A stretch of 7,349 bases of DNA from Clostridiales bacterium. Lineage in GTDB: Bacteria; Bacillota_A; Clostridia; Lachnospirales; Lachnospiraceae. Made by a program: the position numbers and the translations under genes. The notes under the pieces were generated by a model that was not told the origin of the DNA, searched no databases, and saw only the letters and a list, made by a program, of their open reading frames with translations. Location: contig JASKJZ010000122.1 of assembly GCA_030154385.1 (NCBI GenBank), positions 1 through 7,349 on the forward strand, in the 5' to 3' direction. This document shows positions 293 to 7,099 of this stretch, piece by piece; position 1 is the first letter of the stretch; each line of letters opens with the position of its first letter.

Positions 293-1528
293 ATGAGCGA
301 ACAGGAACAGAAAAAAAAGTATGTCCCAGATCCAAATTCGGCGAAGTATAAGCTGAATGAAATCGTGGTAAAGCATTACCGGGAAGTACAAGAGGCAAAG
401 GATCGTGGTGAAAAAATAGGCTGGTGTGCCAGCAATTTTCCACAGGAAATCTTTCAGACGCTTGGTATCAAAGTCTGTTATCCAGAAAATCAAGCAGCCG
501 CGATTGCAGCCAGAGGGGCTGGTGAGCGGATGTGTAATGTATCCGAGGCTGACGGATATTCCAATGATATTTGTGCGTATGCCAGAATCAGTCTTGCTTA
601 TATGAAGGTCAAGGATGCACCAGAGCAGAATATGCCGCAGCCTGACTTTGTGCTTTGCTGTAATAATATATGCAATTGTATGATCAAATGGTATGAAAAT
701 ATTGCAAAAGAATTAAATATTCCAATGATTTTAATCGATATCCCATTCAATCCGGATTATGAAGTATCCGATGCGCAGATTGCTTATGTAAAGGGACAAT
801 TTCTTGCAGCAATCAAGCAGCTGGAAGAAATAACAGGAAAAAAATGGTCAGAAGAACGTTTTAAAGAAGTGATGGAAATTTCCAATCGTACGTCCAGAGC
901 ATGGTTGGAAGCGACCTCTTATACAAAATATACACCATCTCCATTAAATGGTTTTGATCTTCTCAATCATATGGCAGTAGCCGTTTGTGCCAGGGGAACG
1001 GTCGAGGCAGCAGAAGCTTTTGAGGTATTGCTGGAAGAATATAAAAAGGCGGTAAAAGAGGGAACAAGTACCTTCCGTGCGGAAGAAAAATATCGTATTA
1101 TGTTTGAAGGGATTGCTTGCTGGCCGCACCTTCGCGTTACTGCAACCGGGTTAAAATCAAGAGGAATTAACATGGTAGCGACCATCTATGCGGATGCCTT
1201 TGGTATGCTATATGACGATTTGGACGGATTGATTCGTTGCTATTGCAATGTTCCAAATGCGATGAATCTAGAGCAGGCAAGAGATAAGCGCGAAGCCATT
1301 GTGAAAAAAACAAATACGGAAGGGTTATTGGTACATACGAACCGTTCTTGCAAGCTTTGGAGTGGATTTATGTATGAGATGAGTCGCCAGATTGGGGAAC
1401 ATTGTGACATTCCAGTCGCTTCCTTTGATGGTGATCAGGCAGATCCTCGTAATTTTTCGGAGGCGCAGTATGAAACCCGTGTACAAGGGCTTACTGAAAT
1501 TATGGAAGCAAACAAGGGGGTAAGATAA
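293..1528 (+). CDS. fldB: (R)-2-hydroxyacyl-CoA dehydratase, alpha subunit (FldB/HadB type)
   Basis: This is the large subunit of an oxygen-sensitive cytoplasmic [4Fe-4S] dehydratase that removes water from (R)-2-hydroxyacyl-CoA to give the (E)-2-enoyl-CoA by a ketyl-radical mechanism. From the start at 293 it is 411 aa, the normal length. Candidate cluster cysteines are C94 (NDICAYAR), C127 (CCNNICNCMIKWYE) and C353 (NRSCKLWSGF). The 33-residue gap between the first two equals that between the cluster cysteines I recall for C. difficile HadB. The late motif SFDGDQADPRNFSEAQ is typical of the family. Segments such as GFDLLNHMAVAVCARGT and PMILIDIPFN resemble C. sporogenes FldB more than HadB, which favours phenyllactyl-type substrates. 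That comparison is from memory. The next gene starts 1 nt after the stop, so the two are probably translationally coupled. The family is certain; the substrate is not. Confidence 0.93.
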   Translation: MSEQEQKKKYVPDPNSAKYKLNEIVVKHYREVQEAKDRGEKIGWCASNFPQEIFQTLGIKVCYPENQAAAIAARGAGERMCNVSEADGYSNDICAYARISLAYMKVKDAPEQNMPQPDFVLCCNNICNCMIKWYENIAKELNIPMILIDIPFNPDYEVSDAQIAYVKGQFLAAIKQLEEITGKKWSEERFKEVMEISNRTSRAWLEATSYTKYTPSPLNGFDLLNHMAVAVCARGTVEAAEAFEVLLEEYKKAVKEGTSTFRAEEKYRIMFEGIACWPHLRVTATGLKSRGINMVATIYADAFGMLYDDLDGLIRCYCNVPNAMNLEQARDKREAIVKKTNTEGLLVHTNRSCKLWSGFMYEMSRQIGEHCDIPVASFDGDQADPRNFSEAQYETRVQGLTEIMEANKGVR

Positions 1529-1529
1529 T

Positions 1530-2648
1530 ATGGCATTACAAGAATTATGGAATCAATTTCATCAGATAGCATCCTCGCCTAAAAAACAATTGGATGATTA
1601 TCTTGCGAAAGGGAAAAAGGTAGTGGCTTGTGTTCCTGTATATACACCAGAGGAAATCATTCATGCAATGGGGATGGTTCCATTTGGCGCATGGGGCGCT
1701 GATGTGGAAGTAAACGAAGCAAAAAGCTATTTTCCTGCCTTTATTTGCAGTATTATGCAGTCTGTATTAGAGCTTGGCATTAAGGGCTCCTATCAAGGAG
1801 TATCGGCGATCGTTGTACCATCTTTATGTGACTCGCTAAAGTGTCTGGGACAAAACTGGAAGTATGCCGTGACAGATATACCTTTTATTCCGATGACCTA
1901 TCCACAAAACCGCGAAAATGAAGTCGGGGTTGCCTTTTGCAAGGCTGGTTATGAACGAGTAATTGCGGATTTAGAAAAGGCAACGGGTATGAAATTTTCT
2001 GATGCGGAGCTGAAAAAATCCATCGTTATTTATAACGAGCACAACCTTGTGATGCGCGAATTTGCAAAGGCTTGTTCCATACATGCAAGCATTAGTGCCT
2101 CACAGCGATCCGATGTTTTTAAAAGTGCTTACTTTATGGCAAAGGAAGAGCATACCGCCTTAGTAAAGGAATTGTTAGAAGAACTAAAGATGCTAGAGAA
2201 TGACGAACCAAAAAAAATACGAATTGTCACTTCTGGTATTCTTGCGGATAGTAAAAATCTCTTACAAATACTGGATGATAACAACATGCAAATTGTGGCA
2301 GATGACATTGCACATGAATCCAGACAATACCGTGTGGATGCATCGGAGGCAAAGGCTGGCTTAGATGCTCTGGCTGAAAAGTTTGCGGATATGGGGAATT
2401 GTTCGGTACTCTACGATGTTGATAAAAAGAGAGTGGACTATGTTTTGAATCTGGCAAAAGAAGAAAAGGCACAAGGTGTCGTATTATTTATGACAAAGTT
2501 CTGTGATCCAGAAGAATTTGATCTTGTACCGATCATGAATGGATGTAAGAGAGAAAATATTCCATTCATTCAAATCGAAGTGGATCGTCAGATGGTGAAT
2601 TATGAGCAAGCGAGAACGATGGTAGAAACATTAAAAGAAATGTTATAA
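1530..2648 (+). CDS. fldC: (R)-2-hydroxyacyl-CoA dehydratase, beta subunit (FldC/HadC type)
   Basis: This is the partner subunit of the dehydratase, 372 aa, which matches FldC/HadC length. It holds the second [4Fe-4S] cluster that receives the activating electron from an ATP-dependent activator. Likely cluster cysteines are C73 (YFPAFICSIMQ), C100 (PSLCDSLKCLGQNWK) and C325 (TKFCDPEEFD), all in conserved family contexts. C105 is also nearby. The motifs GMVPFGAWG (residues 48-56), TSGILADS and DDIAHESRQYR are characteristic. It starts with ATG at 1530, with AAGGGGG at 1514-1520 inside the end of the alpha gene, so expression of the two is tied together. I see no disruption. The beta subunit resembles both the aromatic and the isocaproyl systems and does not decide the substrate. 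Confidence 0.92.
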   Translation: MALQELWNQFHQIASSPKKQLDDYLAKGKKVVACVPVYTPEEIIHAMGMVPFGAWGADVEVNEAKSYFPAFICSIMQSVLELGIKGSYQGVSAIVVPSLCDSLKCLGQNWKYAVTDIPFIPMTYPQNRENEVGVAFCKAGYERVIADLEKATGMKFSDAELKKSIVIYNEHNLVMREFAKACSIHASISASQRSDVFKSAYFMAKEEHTALVKELLEELKMLENDEPKKIRIVTSGILADSKNLLQILDDNNMQIVADDIAHESRQYRVDASEAKAGLDALAEKFADMGNCSVLYDVDKKRVDYVLNLAKEEKAQGVVLFMTKFCDPEEFDLVPIMNGCKRENIPFIQIEVDRQMVNYEQARTMVETLKEML

Positions 2649-2678: not shown

Positions 2679-3815
2679 ATGATCGATAAAAACAAAATGC
2701 CAGTAGCGATTGGTGTTGCATTTGTATGGTTTACAACACAATTTGGAGGCGGATTTGCATCCGGCGCTCAGTTATTATCTTACTTTGTATCTTTTGGAAT
2801 TTGGGCACTTTTAACCCCAGTTCTTGCACAGGCAATCGGAGCCATTTTCCAGTGGTACGCCCTTCGCTATGCAAAACGCCACAATACATACGATTACCGA
2901 AGCTTTACGGATAGCTTTTATGGAAAATACCGTATTGTGTTTTCAAATTTATATGAATTGGTATATCTAGTCGTAATTTGCCTTGCACCAGCGGTAGCGT
3001 TTGCAACAGGTGGATCAACACTAGAAGCTCTTACAGGAATTCCTTATATTATCTGTACATTGATTATTGGAGTCTTTATCTTTGTTCTTGCAATCTATGG
3101 TACAGAACTTGTACGAAAGGCAGCAGCTACGATTTCGGTTATCATCATTGTTGGTCTGTTGGTTGTTTATATTCCAAATATTATTGCACAGTGGGGAACG
3201 ATAACCAGCAATATTTCAGAAATGGCAAAAACGCCAGCACCAGCAGGTCCTGCTTTTTGGAGAGGTTTTCTCTATGCCGCATTCCAGTTGGCATCCATCG
3301 GATTACTGACCCAGCATGCACAGCCTTTTACCGATGAAAAAGAAGCAAAGACCAGTATGATTTATGGATTTATTGTAAATGCAGTAATCATCTTTATGTG
3401 TACCGTTGGTATGATGGCAGTTATTAATAACCCAGATCTTGCGACGGCAAAGGTTCCAACCTTACTTTTGGTACAGACTGGAGTTGGGGCAAAGGTTTTG
3501 ACACCCGTTATATCAATCCTGATTATTCTTGGTGCTGTTTCAACTGCTGTAAATATGGTAGCAGGTGTGGTTGCTCGTTTTGTTCATAGCTTAGAGAAGA
3601 AAGATAATAATGCAAAGGCATCCGAAGGAAAACGTAAGATGCGTACCATCATCATCGCAGTGATTGCAGTAGTAGTAGCATTCTCGATTGCACAGTTTGG
3701 ATTGATTCCACTCGTAAGCAAAGGATATGGATATCTTGGATATCTTACCATCTTTGTTGTAGTAATTCCATTTATCGTTCATATGATTTTAGCAAAAATG
3801 GGTAAAGTAGATTAA
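2679..3815 (+). CDS. YkvI-family membrane transporter (LeuT-fold type)
   Basis: This is an integral membrane protein of 378 aa with about ten hydrophobic segments, roughly at residues 8-28, 38-60, 88-110, 120-142, 147-170, 195-213, 228-250, 267-300, 322-344 and 350-373. It resembles the poorly characterised YkvI (COG3949) family, distantly related to APC/LeuT-fold amino acid transporters. The glycine-rich break in helix 1 (FGGGFASG, residues 22-29) and the small-residue stretch in helix 6 (ASIG, 205-208) fit the unwound substrate-site helices of that fold. A basic loop with several lysines (about 306-322) precedes helix 9. AGGAGG (2665-2670) lies 8 nt from the ATG, 30 nt after the dehydratase beta gene, and the gene is followed by a strong hairpin. 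Its place suggests uptake of the fermented amino or hydroxy acid, or export of the product. Direction and substrate cannot be read from the sequence. Confidence 0.75.
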   Translation: MIDKNKMPVAIGVAFVWFTTQFGGGFASGAQLLSYFVSFGIWALLTPVLAQAIGAIFQWYALRYAKRHNTYDYRSFTDSFYGKYRIVFSNLYELVYLVVICLAPAVAFATGGSTLEALTGIPYIICTLIIGVFIFVLAIYGTELVRKAAATISVIIIVGLLVVYIPNIIAQWGTITSNISEMAKTPAPAGPAFWRGFLYAAFQLASIGLLTQHAQPFTDEKEAKTSMIYGFIVNAVIIFMCTVGMMAVINNPDLATAKVPTLLLVQTGVGAKVLTPVISILIILGAVSTAVNMVAGVVARFVHSLEKKDNNAKASEGKRKMRTIIIAVIAVVVAFSIAQFGLIPLVSKGYGYLGYLTIFVVVIPFIVHMILAKMGKVD

Positions 3816-3954: not shown

Positions 3955-5094
3955 ATGTATTTTACGGAACAGCATGAACTAATCAGAAAATTAGCAAGAG
4001 AGTTTGCAGAAAAAGAACTGACGAATGAAATCCTGGATCAAGTGGAAGAGACTGAAACTTTTCCTGAGGAAATTTTAGAGAAGATGGCAAGGGCTGGATT
4101 TTTTGGTATAAAAATTCCAAAGGAGCTTGGAGGACAGGGAGCAGATGCCCGTTCTTATGTCATTGTAATGGAGGAAATTGCAAGAGTAAGCGGTGTGGCA
4201 AGTATTTATGTTTCTTCTCCAAACTCTTTATCAGGAGGACCACTTTTATTATCAGGCACCGACGAGCAAAAGGAAAAGTACTTGCGTCCCGTGGTTACCG
4301 GAAAGAAAAAGCTAGCCTTTGCACTTACCGAACCAGGAGCGGGCTCGGATGCAAGTGGTATGTCGACCACCGCAGTAAAAGACGGCGAATATTATGTATT
4401 AAATGGTCGTAAATGCTTTATTACAATGGCACCTCTTGCAGATTATTCCGTCGTATATGCAAAAACAGATGCAACCAAGGGAAGCAGAGGAATCAGTGCT
4501 TTTGTGGTTGACATGAAGCTTCCTGGCGTATCTTGTGGTAAGCCAGAAAATAAAATGGGTGTGGTAGGCTGTGCGACCAGCGATATTATCCTTGAAAACG
4601 TACGTGTTCATGAAAGCGATTTGCTTGGCGAAGAAGGAAAAGGATTTATCAATGCGATGAAGACCTTGGACACGGGACGTCTTGGCGTATCGGCACAGTC
4701 CATTGGTGTTGCACAGGGCTGCTTTGATGAAGCACTCAAGTATGCAAAAGAAAGAAAACAGTTTGGAAAACGGATTGGTGACTTCCAGGCGGTCAGCTTT
4801 ATGCTAGCCGATATGGCAACAAAACTTGAGGCAGCTAAGCAGTTGGTATACAAAGCCGCTTATATGATGGATATGCATCAGGATGCCAGTATGAATGCTT
4901 CGATGGCGAAATATTATGCATCGGAAATCTGCAACGAAATCGCAGGAAAAGCGCTTCAGATTCATGGAGGCTATGGCTTTATCAAGGATTACAAAATTGA
5001 ACGTATGTATCGAGATTGTCGTGTATTCACTATCTATGAAGGAACATCACAGGTTCAGCAGATGGTTATCTCAGGCAAGTTGTTGAAGAAATAG
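3955..5094 (+). CDS. acdA: Acyl-CoA dehydrogenase of an electron-bifurcating enoyl-CoA reductase (AcdA/AcdB type)
   Basis: This FAD enzyme, 379 aa from the ATG at 3955, is full length for the acyl-CoA dehydrogenase family. In this context it works in the reducing direction, converting 2-enoyl-CoA made by the dehydratase to the saturated acyl-CoA with electrons from EtfAB. Visible signatures are the FAD/substrate motif LTEPGAGSD (124-132), RKQFGK (267-272) in the C-terminal helical domain, QIHGGYGF (335-342), and YEGTSQVQ with E362 as the expected catalytic base. The N-terminal helical domain begins [20 protein letters not shown]. It is called AcdB in the C. difficile isocaproate cluster and AcdA in the C. 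sporogenes aromatic cluster; the neighbours favour the latter. Its own stop is TAG, followed directly by the etfB ribosome site 19 nt before the next start. This argues that TAG normally terminates in this genome. Confidence 0.92.
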
Positions 5095-5113: not shown

Positions 5114-5899
5114 ATGAAAATTTTAGTATGTGTAAAGCAGGTACCAGATACCAACGAAGTAAAGATTGATCCGGTAAAGGGAACCTTAATACGTGATGGT
5201 GTTCCAAGTATTTTAAATCCAGATGATGCAAATGCACTTGAGGCAGCACTTGTTTATAAAGATAGTAATCCAGATACCATAATTGCTGTACTTACCATGG
5301 GACCTCCACAGGCAACCTATATGTTAAGAGAGTGTTTGGCGATGGGGGCAGATGAAGCATACCTGCTTAGTGATCGCGCATTCGGAGGAGCCGATACTTG
5401 CGCTACCTCTACCACAATAGCAGCGGGAATCAAAAAGGTAGGGAATGTCGATGTGATTTTTGCAGGACGTCAGGCAATTGATGGGGATACCGCGCAGGTG
5501 GGACCTCAGGTAGCACAAAGACTGGATATCCCAGTGGTTACTTATGTTCAAGATATCAAACTCGAATAGGGAAAAGCAATTGTACAGCGTCAAATGGAAG
5601 ATGGTTACGAAGAAATTGAAGTGACGACACCATGTCTTTTAACCGCAGTAAAAGAGCTAAATGAACCAAGATATATGAGCATCGGCGGGATTATGGAGGC
5701 TTATCAAAAAGAAATCACCGTGTGGAATCATGAGGATGTTGCTCTTTCTCCAAAGGATTGTGGATTAAACGCGTCTCCAACTCAAGTATTTCGTTCCTTT
5801 ACACCACCAGCAAAGGGCAAGGGTGAAATGCTTAGTGGTACGGCAAAGGAAATGAGTGAGGCGTTAGTTTCTTGTTTGAAAGAAAAACATTATCTATAA
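5114..5899 (+). pseudogene. etfB: Electron transfer flavoprotein beta subunit with an in-frame TAG at codon 152
   Basis: Read through the single TAG at 5567-5569, this encodes 261 residues, the usual EtfB length, with family motifs on both sides and no frame change. The N-terminal part has MKILVCVKQVPDTNEVKID, the MGPP turn (62-65), LAMGADEAYLLSD and the nucleotide-binding motif AGRQAIDGDTAQVGPQ (117-131). After the stop come RQMEDGYEEIEV and the dehydrogenase-docking loop LNEPRYMSIGGIM (182-194). As read, the product would be 151 aa and lack the docking loop. An ATG at codon 161 (5594) begins the remaining part but has no well-placed ribosome site. EtfB normally pairs with EtfA, binds the bifurcating FAD and contacts NADH. 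The TAG falls between an acidic residue and GK, a likely surface turn, so the ancestral codon was plausibly AAG, GAG or CAG. It could be a recent nonsense mutation, a sequence error or readthrough. AGGAG at 5100-5104 serves the start. Confidence 0.85.
5567..5569 (+). other. In-frame amber codon inside etfB
   Basis: TAG followed by GGA interrupts an otherwise intact frame; codons 153-261 keep conserved EtfB sequence. No strong hairpin is evident just downstream. One base change restores a sense codon (for example AAG, GAG or CAG). Confidence 0.95.
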
Positions 5900-5920: not shown

Positions 5921-7099
5921 ATGGCTGTAAATGTAATCAATGAAAAATGTAGAGGCTGTACGATTTGTGTGAAGAACTGTCCGTTTGGGGCAATTACGAT
6001 GGACAATAAAATCGCAGTTATCGGCTCTGCTTGTACAAGCTGCGGTGTCTGTGTAGAAAAGTGCCCATTTGGTGCAATCGAAAAAACAGAGGAAGAAAAA
6101 GAAATAAAGGACTTAAGTGCGTATAAGGGCGTCTGGGTGTTTGCAGAGCAAAGAGAAGGAAAGCTTATGCCAGTTGTAATCGAGCTTCTTGGAGAAGGCA
6201 AGAAATTGGCTTTGGAAGTTGGATGTGAGCTCTGCGCAATCGTTTGTGGATCGAATATCAGTGGACTCGCAGAGGAATTATTCGCGTATGGCGCCGATAA
6301 GGTATATGTAGCAGACCATGAAGCACTAAAAAATTATACCACCGATGGTTATACCAAGGTAATTTATGAAGCAATTACGGAATATAAACCAGAAATCGTA
6401 CTGCTTGGTGCTACACATATTGGACGTGACTTAGGCCCTTGCCTTGCCGTTCGTTGTAACACTGGTCTTACCGCCGACTGCACGAAACTAGAAATTGACC
6501 CAGAGGATAAAAAGATCAAACAGACACGTCCTGCTTTTGGCGGAAATCTGATGGCTACCATTGTTTGCCCAAATCATAGACCGCAGATGTCTACCGTACG
6601 TCCTGGTGTTATGGAAAAAGCCTCTTTTGCAGAAGGTAGAAAGGGTGAAATTGTAACCTTACATCCAAGCTTTGCAGATGGTGATATTCGTACGAAGGTT
6701 ATCAATATTGTAAAGACCATCAAAGATAGCGTATCTCTTACGGATGCAGAAATTATCGTTGCAGGTGGTATGGGACTTGGAAAGCCAGAAGGCTTTGAAC
6801 TTCTAAAGCAGCTTGCCGATAAGCTTGGCGGCGTTGTGGCAGCTTCCAGGGCGGCAGTTGATGCAGGATGGATTGATCATGCGTACCAGGTTGGACAAAC
6901 AGGAACCACAGTAAAGCCAAAAATTTATATTGCATGTGGCATTTCAGGCGCAATTCAGCATGTAGCTGGTATGCAAAATGCAGAGCAGATTATCGCAATT
7001 AATAATAATGAAAATGCACCAATATTTGAAGTGGCGGATTACGGGCTGGTGGGCGATTTATACCAGGTTATTCCAGCTATGATGGAAGAATTAAACTAA
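5921..7099 (+). CDS. etfA: Electron transfer flavoprotein alpha subunit with N-terminal 2x[4Fe-4S] ferredoxin domain
   Basis: At 392 aa this is about 70 residues longer than ordinary EtfA because of a ferredoxin-like N-terminus. C10, C13, C16, C20 and C38, C41, C44, C48 form two CxxCxxCxxxCP motifs. The Etf alpha N-terminal domain follows (about 68-250). The FAD-binding C-terminal domain shows AGGMGLG (281-287), R310 in [19 protein letters not shown] (325-333), [12 protein letters not shown] (340-351) and [12 protein letters not shown]. EtfA proteins with such iron-sulfur extensions occur in bifurcating complexes such as CarE of the caffeyl-CoA reductase. The extension is thought to route electrons to ferredoxin. 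It sits 21 nt after etfB with AAAGGA upstream, and is intact even though etfB carries a stop codon. It acts in the cytoplasm with EtfB and the dehydrogenase encoded just upstream. Confidence 0.93.

Follow-up and report, generated by a model that had tools for sequence, protein, structure and literature searches.

The etfB gene in the window, by which we mean the whole stretch of 7349 bases that was analysed, carries a lone in-frame TAG at codon 152. The simplest account of this TAG is that a mutation knocked out etfB very recently or that the sequence is in error, and not that a stop codon is read in a new way. To the first of these, a real and very recent nonsense mutation in etfB, we give a probability of about 0.5. 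The second, an error of consensus base-calling or of assembly in a contig that was seen a single time, with an intact etfB in the organism itself, is a strong competitor at a little short of even odds. Readthrough of the codon, splitting of the gene and reassignment of TAG are improbable even when the three are taken together.

When translated, the etfB frame at 5114-5899 gives 151 residues, the TAG at codon 152 of 261, then 109 residues and a terminal TAA. The residues before the stop (1-151) and the 109 residues after it match the NCBIfam EtfB profile NF040731 in register (Table 1), and thus the frame and the total length are normal, in agreement with the earlier note, which had described etfB as intact except for one in-frame TAG at codon 152, with both sides of the TAG in the same frame. 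The two pieces score 295.3 and 170.7 bits, each below the 445-bit cut-off of the profile, and no full-length match to NF040731 lies in one open frame, because the TAG separates the two matching pieces. The ETF domain PF01012 also spans the break, with its positions 3-125 before the stop and 129-180 after it. Judged from these matches, the gene with the TAG is a descendant of etfB. By stopping at the TAG, 110 of the 261 codons are lost, and the lost part presumably holds the dehydrogenase-docking loop, as in human ETF-beta.

Table 1. Features of the analysed window, with the grounds on which each was placed
Feature	Positions	Strand	Basis
2-hydroxyacyl-CoA dehydratase subunit, HadB-like, open frame	293..1528	+	start chosen by eye
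2-hydroxyacyl-CoA dehydratase subunit, HadC-like, open frame	1530..2648	+	open frame list, profile match
378-residue protein, membrane transporter-like by eye	2679..3815	+	position shared with relatives
acyl-CoA dehydrogenase (acd), TAG at conserved C-terminus	3955..5094	+	profile match, loci of relatives
etfB 5' part, 151 codons	5114..5566	+	ATG start with upstream purine-rich GGAG-type ribosome site; NF040731 positions 1-149
in-frame TAG, etfB codon 152	5567..5569	+	sense codon in 80/80 genome loci
etfB 3' part, 109 codons and TAA, undecayed	5570..5899	+	NF040731 positions 153-260; no departure at invariant columns
etfA, open frame encoding a 4Fe-4S ferredoxin domain at the N-terminus	5921..7099	+	profile matches
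family III CoA-transferase (CaiB-like), start of gene, leaves contig end	7132..7349	+	profile matches

The flanking genes are undamaged, as had been claimed before: hadB and hadC, the transporter-like gene, acd and etfA each form an open frame, their order is that seen in the relatives, and the last gene runs off the contig end. It is noted that the hadB frame opens at ATG 263, yet it is ATG 293 that has an AAGGAGG ribosome site. The 378-residue protein gave no match in a Pfam search and is perhaps a YkvI-like transporter. With its 2-hydroxyacyl-CoA dehydratase, acyl-CoA dehydrogenase, EtfAB and CoA-transferase the operon looks catabolic, and therefore its loss would probably be tolerable. Among solved structures, the one closest to the unbroken homologue P0001 (residues 1-260, 445 bits) is CarD, which is the EtfB subunit in the caffeyl-CoA reductase-Etf complex of Acetobacterium woodii (PDB 6fah). 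As in that complex, an acyl-CoA dehydrogenase, EtfB and an EtfA with a ferredoxin domain are encoded side by side in the window, with the difference that the dehydrogenase is here accompanied by the 2-hydroxyacyl-CoA dehydratase and the CoA-transferase. At the place of codon 152, where the etfB of the window has TAG, CarD has Asp.

The comparison with the relatives, which the earlier note had proposed as a check, shows that the place of codon 152 is variable and is filled by a sense codon elsewhere. In a genome scan with 430 confirmed relatives, of which the best 80 loci were kept, a choice that may favour unbroken copies, all 80 have a sense codon at this place (D in 26, E in 23, G in 19, K in 5, N in 3, T in 2 and Q in 2) and none has a stop in etfB; the codon is one substitution away from TAG in 16 of them. 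A residue is also present there in all 120 of the EtfB proteins listed first, mostly E (58) or D (34), a count that bears only on the variability of the site since predicted proteins cannot show a stop. Moreover, in the family to which the closest genome found belongs, 209 of 397 genomes have an etfB match at E 1e-60 or better, and there is no internal stop among the etfB matches listed. Nor is any relative truncated where the window is: eight of the 148 EtfB proteins compared are shorter than 255 residues, as judged at the protein level and not traced to DNA, and seven of these match from residue 1 and cease to match at 147, 170, 181, 196, 198, 199 and 226, none at 151, the eighth spanning 1-261.

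Next consider the part of the gene behind the stop. In an alignment of the window with 140 EtfB proteins of 255-275 residues (the eight shorter ones being dropped from the 148), 92 columns are invariant, 74 before the stop and 18 after it, and the window departs at none of them; it also departs at none of the columns that are conserved in at least 97% of the proteins, 109 before the stop and 40 after it. Residues that are seen in no relative number one after the stop (position 254) and zero before it, as compared with means of 0.96 and 0.61, respectively, in the controls, with 64 of the 140 controls having at least as many after the stop as the window. Against nine unbroken relatives the 3' part has a mean pN/pS of 0.168, where pairs among the nine average 0.148 (range 0.050 to 0.278), and the 5' part has a mean of 0.086 where the nine average 0.059. 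The window is thus slightly higher than the relatives on both sides of the stop; these ratios are rough, since many of the pairs are close to saturation at synonymous sites. In the absence of decay after it, the stop is recent, or is absent from the real genome, or is read through. In a neutral simulation, the probability that all 40 near-invariant columns are kept and no new stop arises falls to 0.05 at 0.03 substitutions per site, and based on this model the stop would be no more than about 3% neutral divergence old; the synonymous divergence of the etfB 5' part from the closest locus found is about 0.87. An old pseudogene is thus ruled out by the undecayed 3' part together with the simulation.

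In the case of a real mutation, translation of etfB would stop after 151 of the 261 residues, and the 151-residue stub is expected not to pair with EtfA in a functional EtfAB heterodimer. The sequenced cell or strain would then lack this copy of the acyl-CoA dehydrogenase/EtfAB (CarCDE-like) step. Both a genuine TAG and an inactive product are inferred here. The gene resembles a recent nonsense pseudogene in having one stop with otherwise normal frame, length and constraint: the premature stop is absent from the relatives and there is no decay past it, with zero departures at the 18 invariant and the 40 near-invariant columns.

The same facts are, however, explained equally well by a base error. 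The contig has only 7349 bases, the window has no other lesion and shows no decay past the TAG, and its EtfA was found in this one contig only among the matches listed, the next relative being 88% identical. It is noted that a stop would result from 934 of the 20385 single substitutions that are possible in the coding sequence. With consensus error rates of 1e-4 and 1e-5, which are assumed and not measured, 0.031 and 0.0031 false stops would be expected per window, respectively, which is not negligible over many windows and which is, in our rough judgement, of about the same order as what would be expected from newly arisen, genuine nonsense mutations in an operon that can be dispensed with. 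The lack of frameshifts in the other genes and of a join at the TAG makes poor sequence or a chimera less likely, yet it says nothing against a single wrong base.

As regards a join, the DNA identity to the closest genome locus found, L001 (Lachnoclostridium sp. UBA5725), in stretches of 300 bases is 0.80-0.81 around the stop, 0.79 just after it and 0.75-0.77 in etfA. This identity has no step at the TAG, so that there is no sign of a chimeric join there, and a join at the TAG is rejected in that no break occurs in the identity to L001, L005 or L003 over such stretches. At the protein level, EtfB before the stop is 95% identical to that of Clostridium cadaveris (L005) and 91% to that of L001, and after the stop the order is reversed, with 77% to C. 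cadaveris and 87% to L001. Since the DNA has no break at the stop and the synonymous divergence is unlike the protein pattern, this looks like uneven conservation of the protein and not like a join.

Judging by its closest relatives, the bacterium probably belongs near the Lachnospiraceae. The L001 locus is 80% identical in DNA to the window across acd-etfB-etfA and matches it in all seven genes and their order, its etfB being unbroken. The contig of UBA5725 also has a second acd-etfB-etfA cluster (L030) about 9 kb from that of L001, with no match to hadB or hadC in the 12783 bases around it; with two such clusters in the closest relative found, this lineage may have a second EtfB. The best whole-length EtfB match among the best 120 listed is 90% identical, and none of these 120 is a second sequence of the species. 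A near-identical member may be hidden, the protein database being clustered at 90% identity and the best matches only being listed. The best DNA match is 80% in the genomes searched. A megablast search of a plasmid collection gave no match to a plasmid copy of etfB-etfA. As judged by titles, none of the papers listed deals with a lone premature stop in etfB.

We now turn to the proposal that an amino acid is inserted at the TAG, whether through an amber suppressor tRNA, a pyrrolysine system or programmed readthrough, so that EtfB is made at full length or in two forms. The normal constraint on the etfB 3' part would fit this too, and since the residue at codon 152 varies widely, many inserted residues should be tolerated. 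An in-frame TAG inside a constrained frame is also what pyrrolysine or amber-suppressed genes have in common with the window. The difference from them is that TAG occurs in none of the 80 loci, that the closest relative found has no PylD above the cut-off and that no structure follows the stop. Without a stop at this place in any of the 80 loci, conserved recoding is rejected, and a conserved stop, such as programmed readthrough would have, is lacking. The 100 bases from the TAG onward fold like their shuffles (z -0.51, with 63 of 200 shuffles folding at least as well), and thus the RNA structure after the TAG is not beyond chance and a hairpin-driven readthrough can be discarded, though some readthrough signals need no RNA structure. 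ARAGORN found no tRNA gene in the 7349-base window, and acd has TAG as its normal end, both of which speak against suppression. All this makes it very unlikely that the codon is read.

For pyrrolysine in particular, PylD scores above the curated cut-off in a single genome out of 299 from the family to which the closest genome found (G001) belongs, which can be counted in favour of suppression, while the matches in the other 213 of the 214 matching genomes lie below it and G001 itself has none above. Weak PylD matches mean nothing, because 10 of 14 control genomes also have a match, one of them above the cut-off. The one PylD match above the curated cut-off among the 299 lies at locus L117 (G055:C7:40709-41500), so that the genome concerned may have a pyrrolysine system. 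The more specific picture, that the amber codon is read by a natural suppressor tRNA or pyrrolysine system, that the residue is inserted at a permissive loop of a full-length EtfB and that the output of the EtfAB-dependent, possibly electron-bifurcating reductase is set by the suppression efficiency, is slightly less probable still. Readthrough or suppression is without positive support over the ordinary readings. Accordingly, in the list of explanations given by the earlier note, the recent nonsense mutation and the base-call error gain from the sense codon in all 80 loci, the undecayed 3' part and the TAG that ends acd, whereas suppression and programmed readthrough lose ground, with no 3' RNA structure and with pylD seldom present in the family to which the closest genome found belongs.

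Reassignment of TAG to sense throughout the genome has nothing in its favour beyond the in-frame etfB TAG itself and is extremely unlikely. The TAG of acd follows KLLKK at the conserved C-terminus, and in 10 of 10 relative loci (L001-L009 and L030, which are 10 of the 80 genome loci and come, by their contig titles, from 8 genomes) a stop comes after LLKK, as TAG in five and TAA in five. If this TAG were passed, 24 residues would be added in another frame across the etfB start. The terminal TAG of acd thus contradicts reassignment, which the earlier note had already considered unlikely on the ground of this gene.

The last possibility is that etfB is split into two working polypeptides, the second beginning at an internal start such as ATG 5594, the first in-frame ATG, 24 bases past the TAG; we consider this to be just as remote. 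The frame is open and conserved past the stop, as a split gene would require, but ATG 5594 has no upstream ribosome site, unlike etfB and etfA with their purine-rich sites (by eye), and an internal restart there is rejected on this ground. The starts at 5693 and 5828 do follow purine-rich stretches, but these code in the conserved frame and the resulting pieces would be still shorter. Moreover, the break would cut the single ETF domain PF01012 that is common to both halves, and none of the 80 loci is split.

Finally, we note that lone nonsense mutations, like consensus errors, are commonplace, so that the finding as it stands has little significance. If it were true that the codon is read through, an anaerobe would be shown to suppress an amber codon naturally in one of its central catabolic genes.
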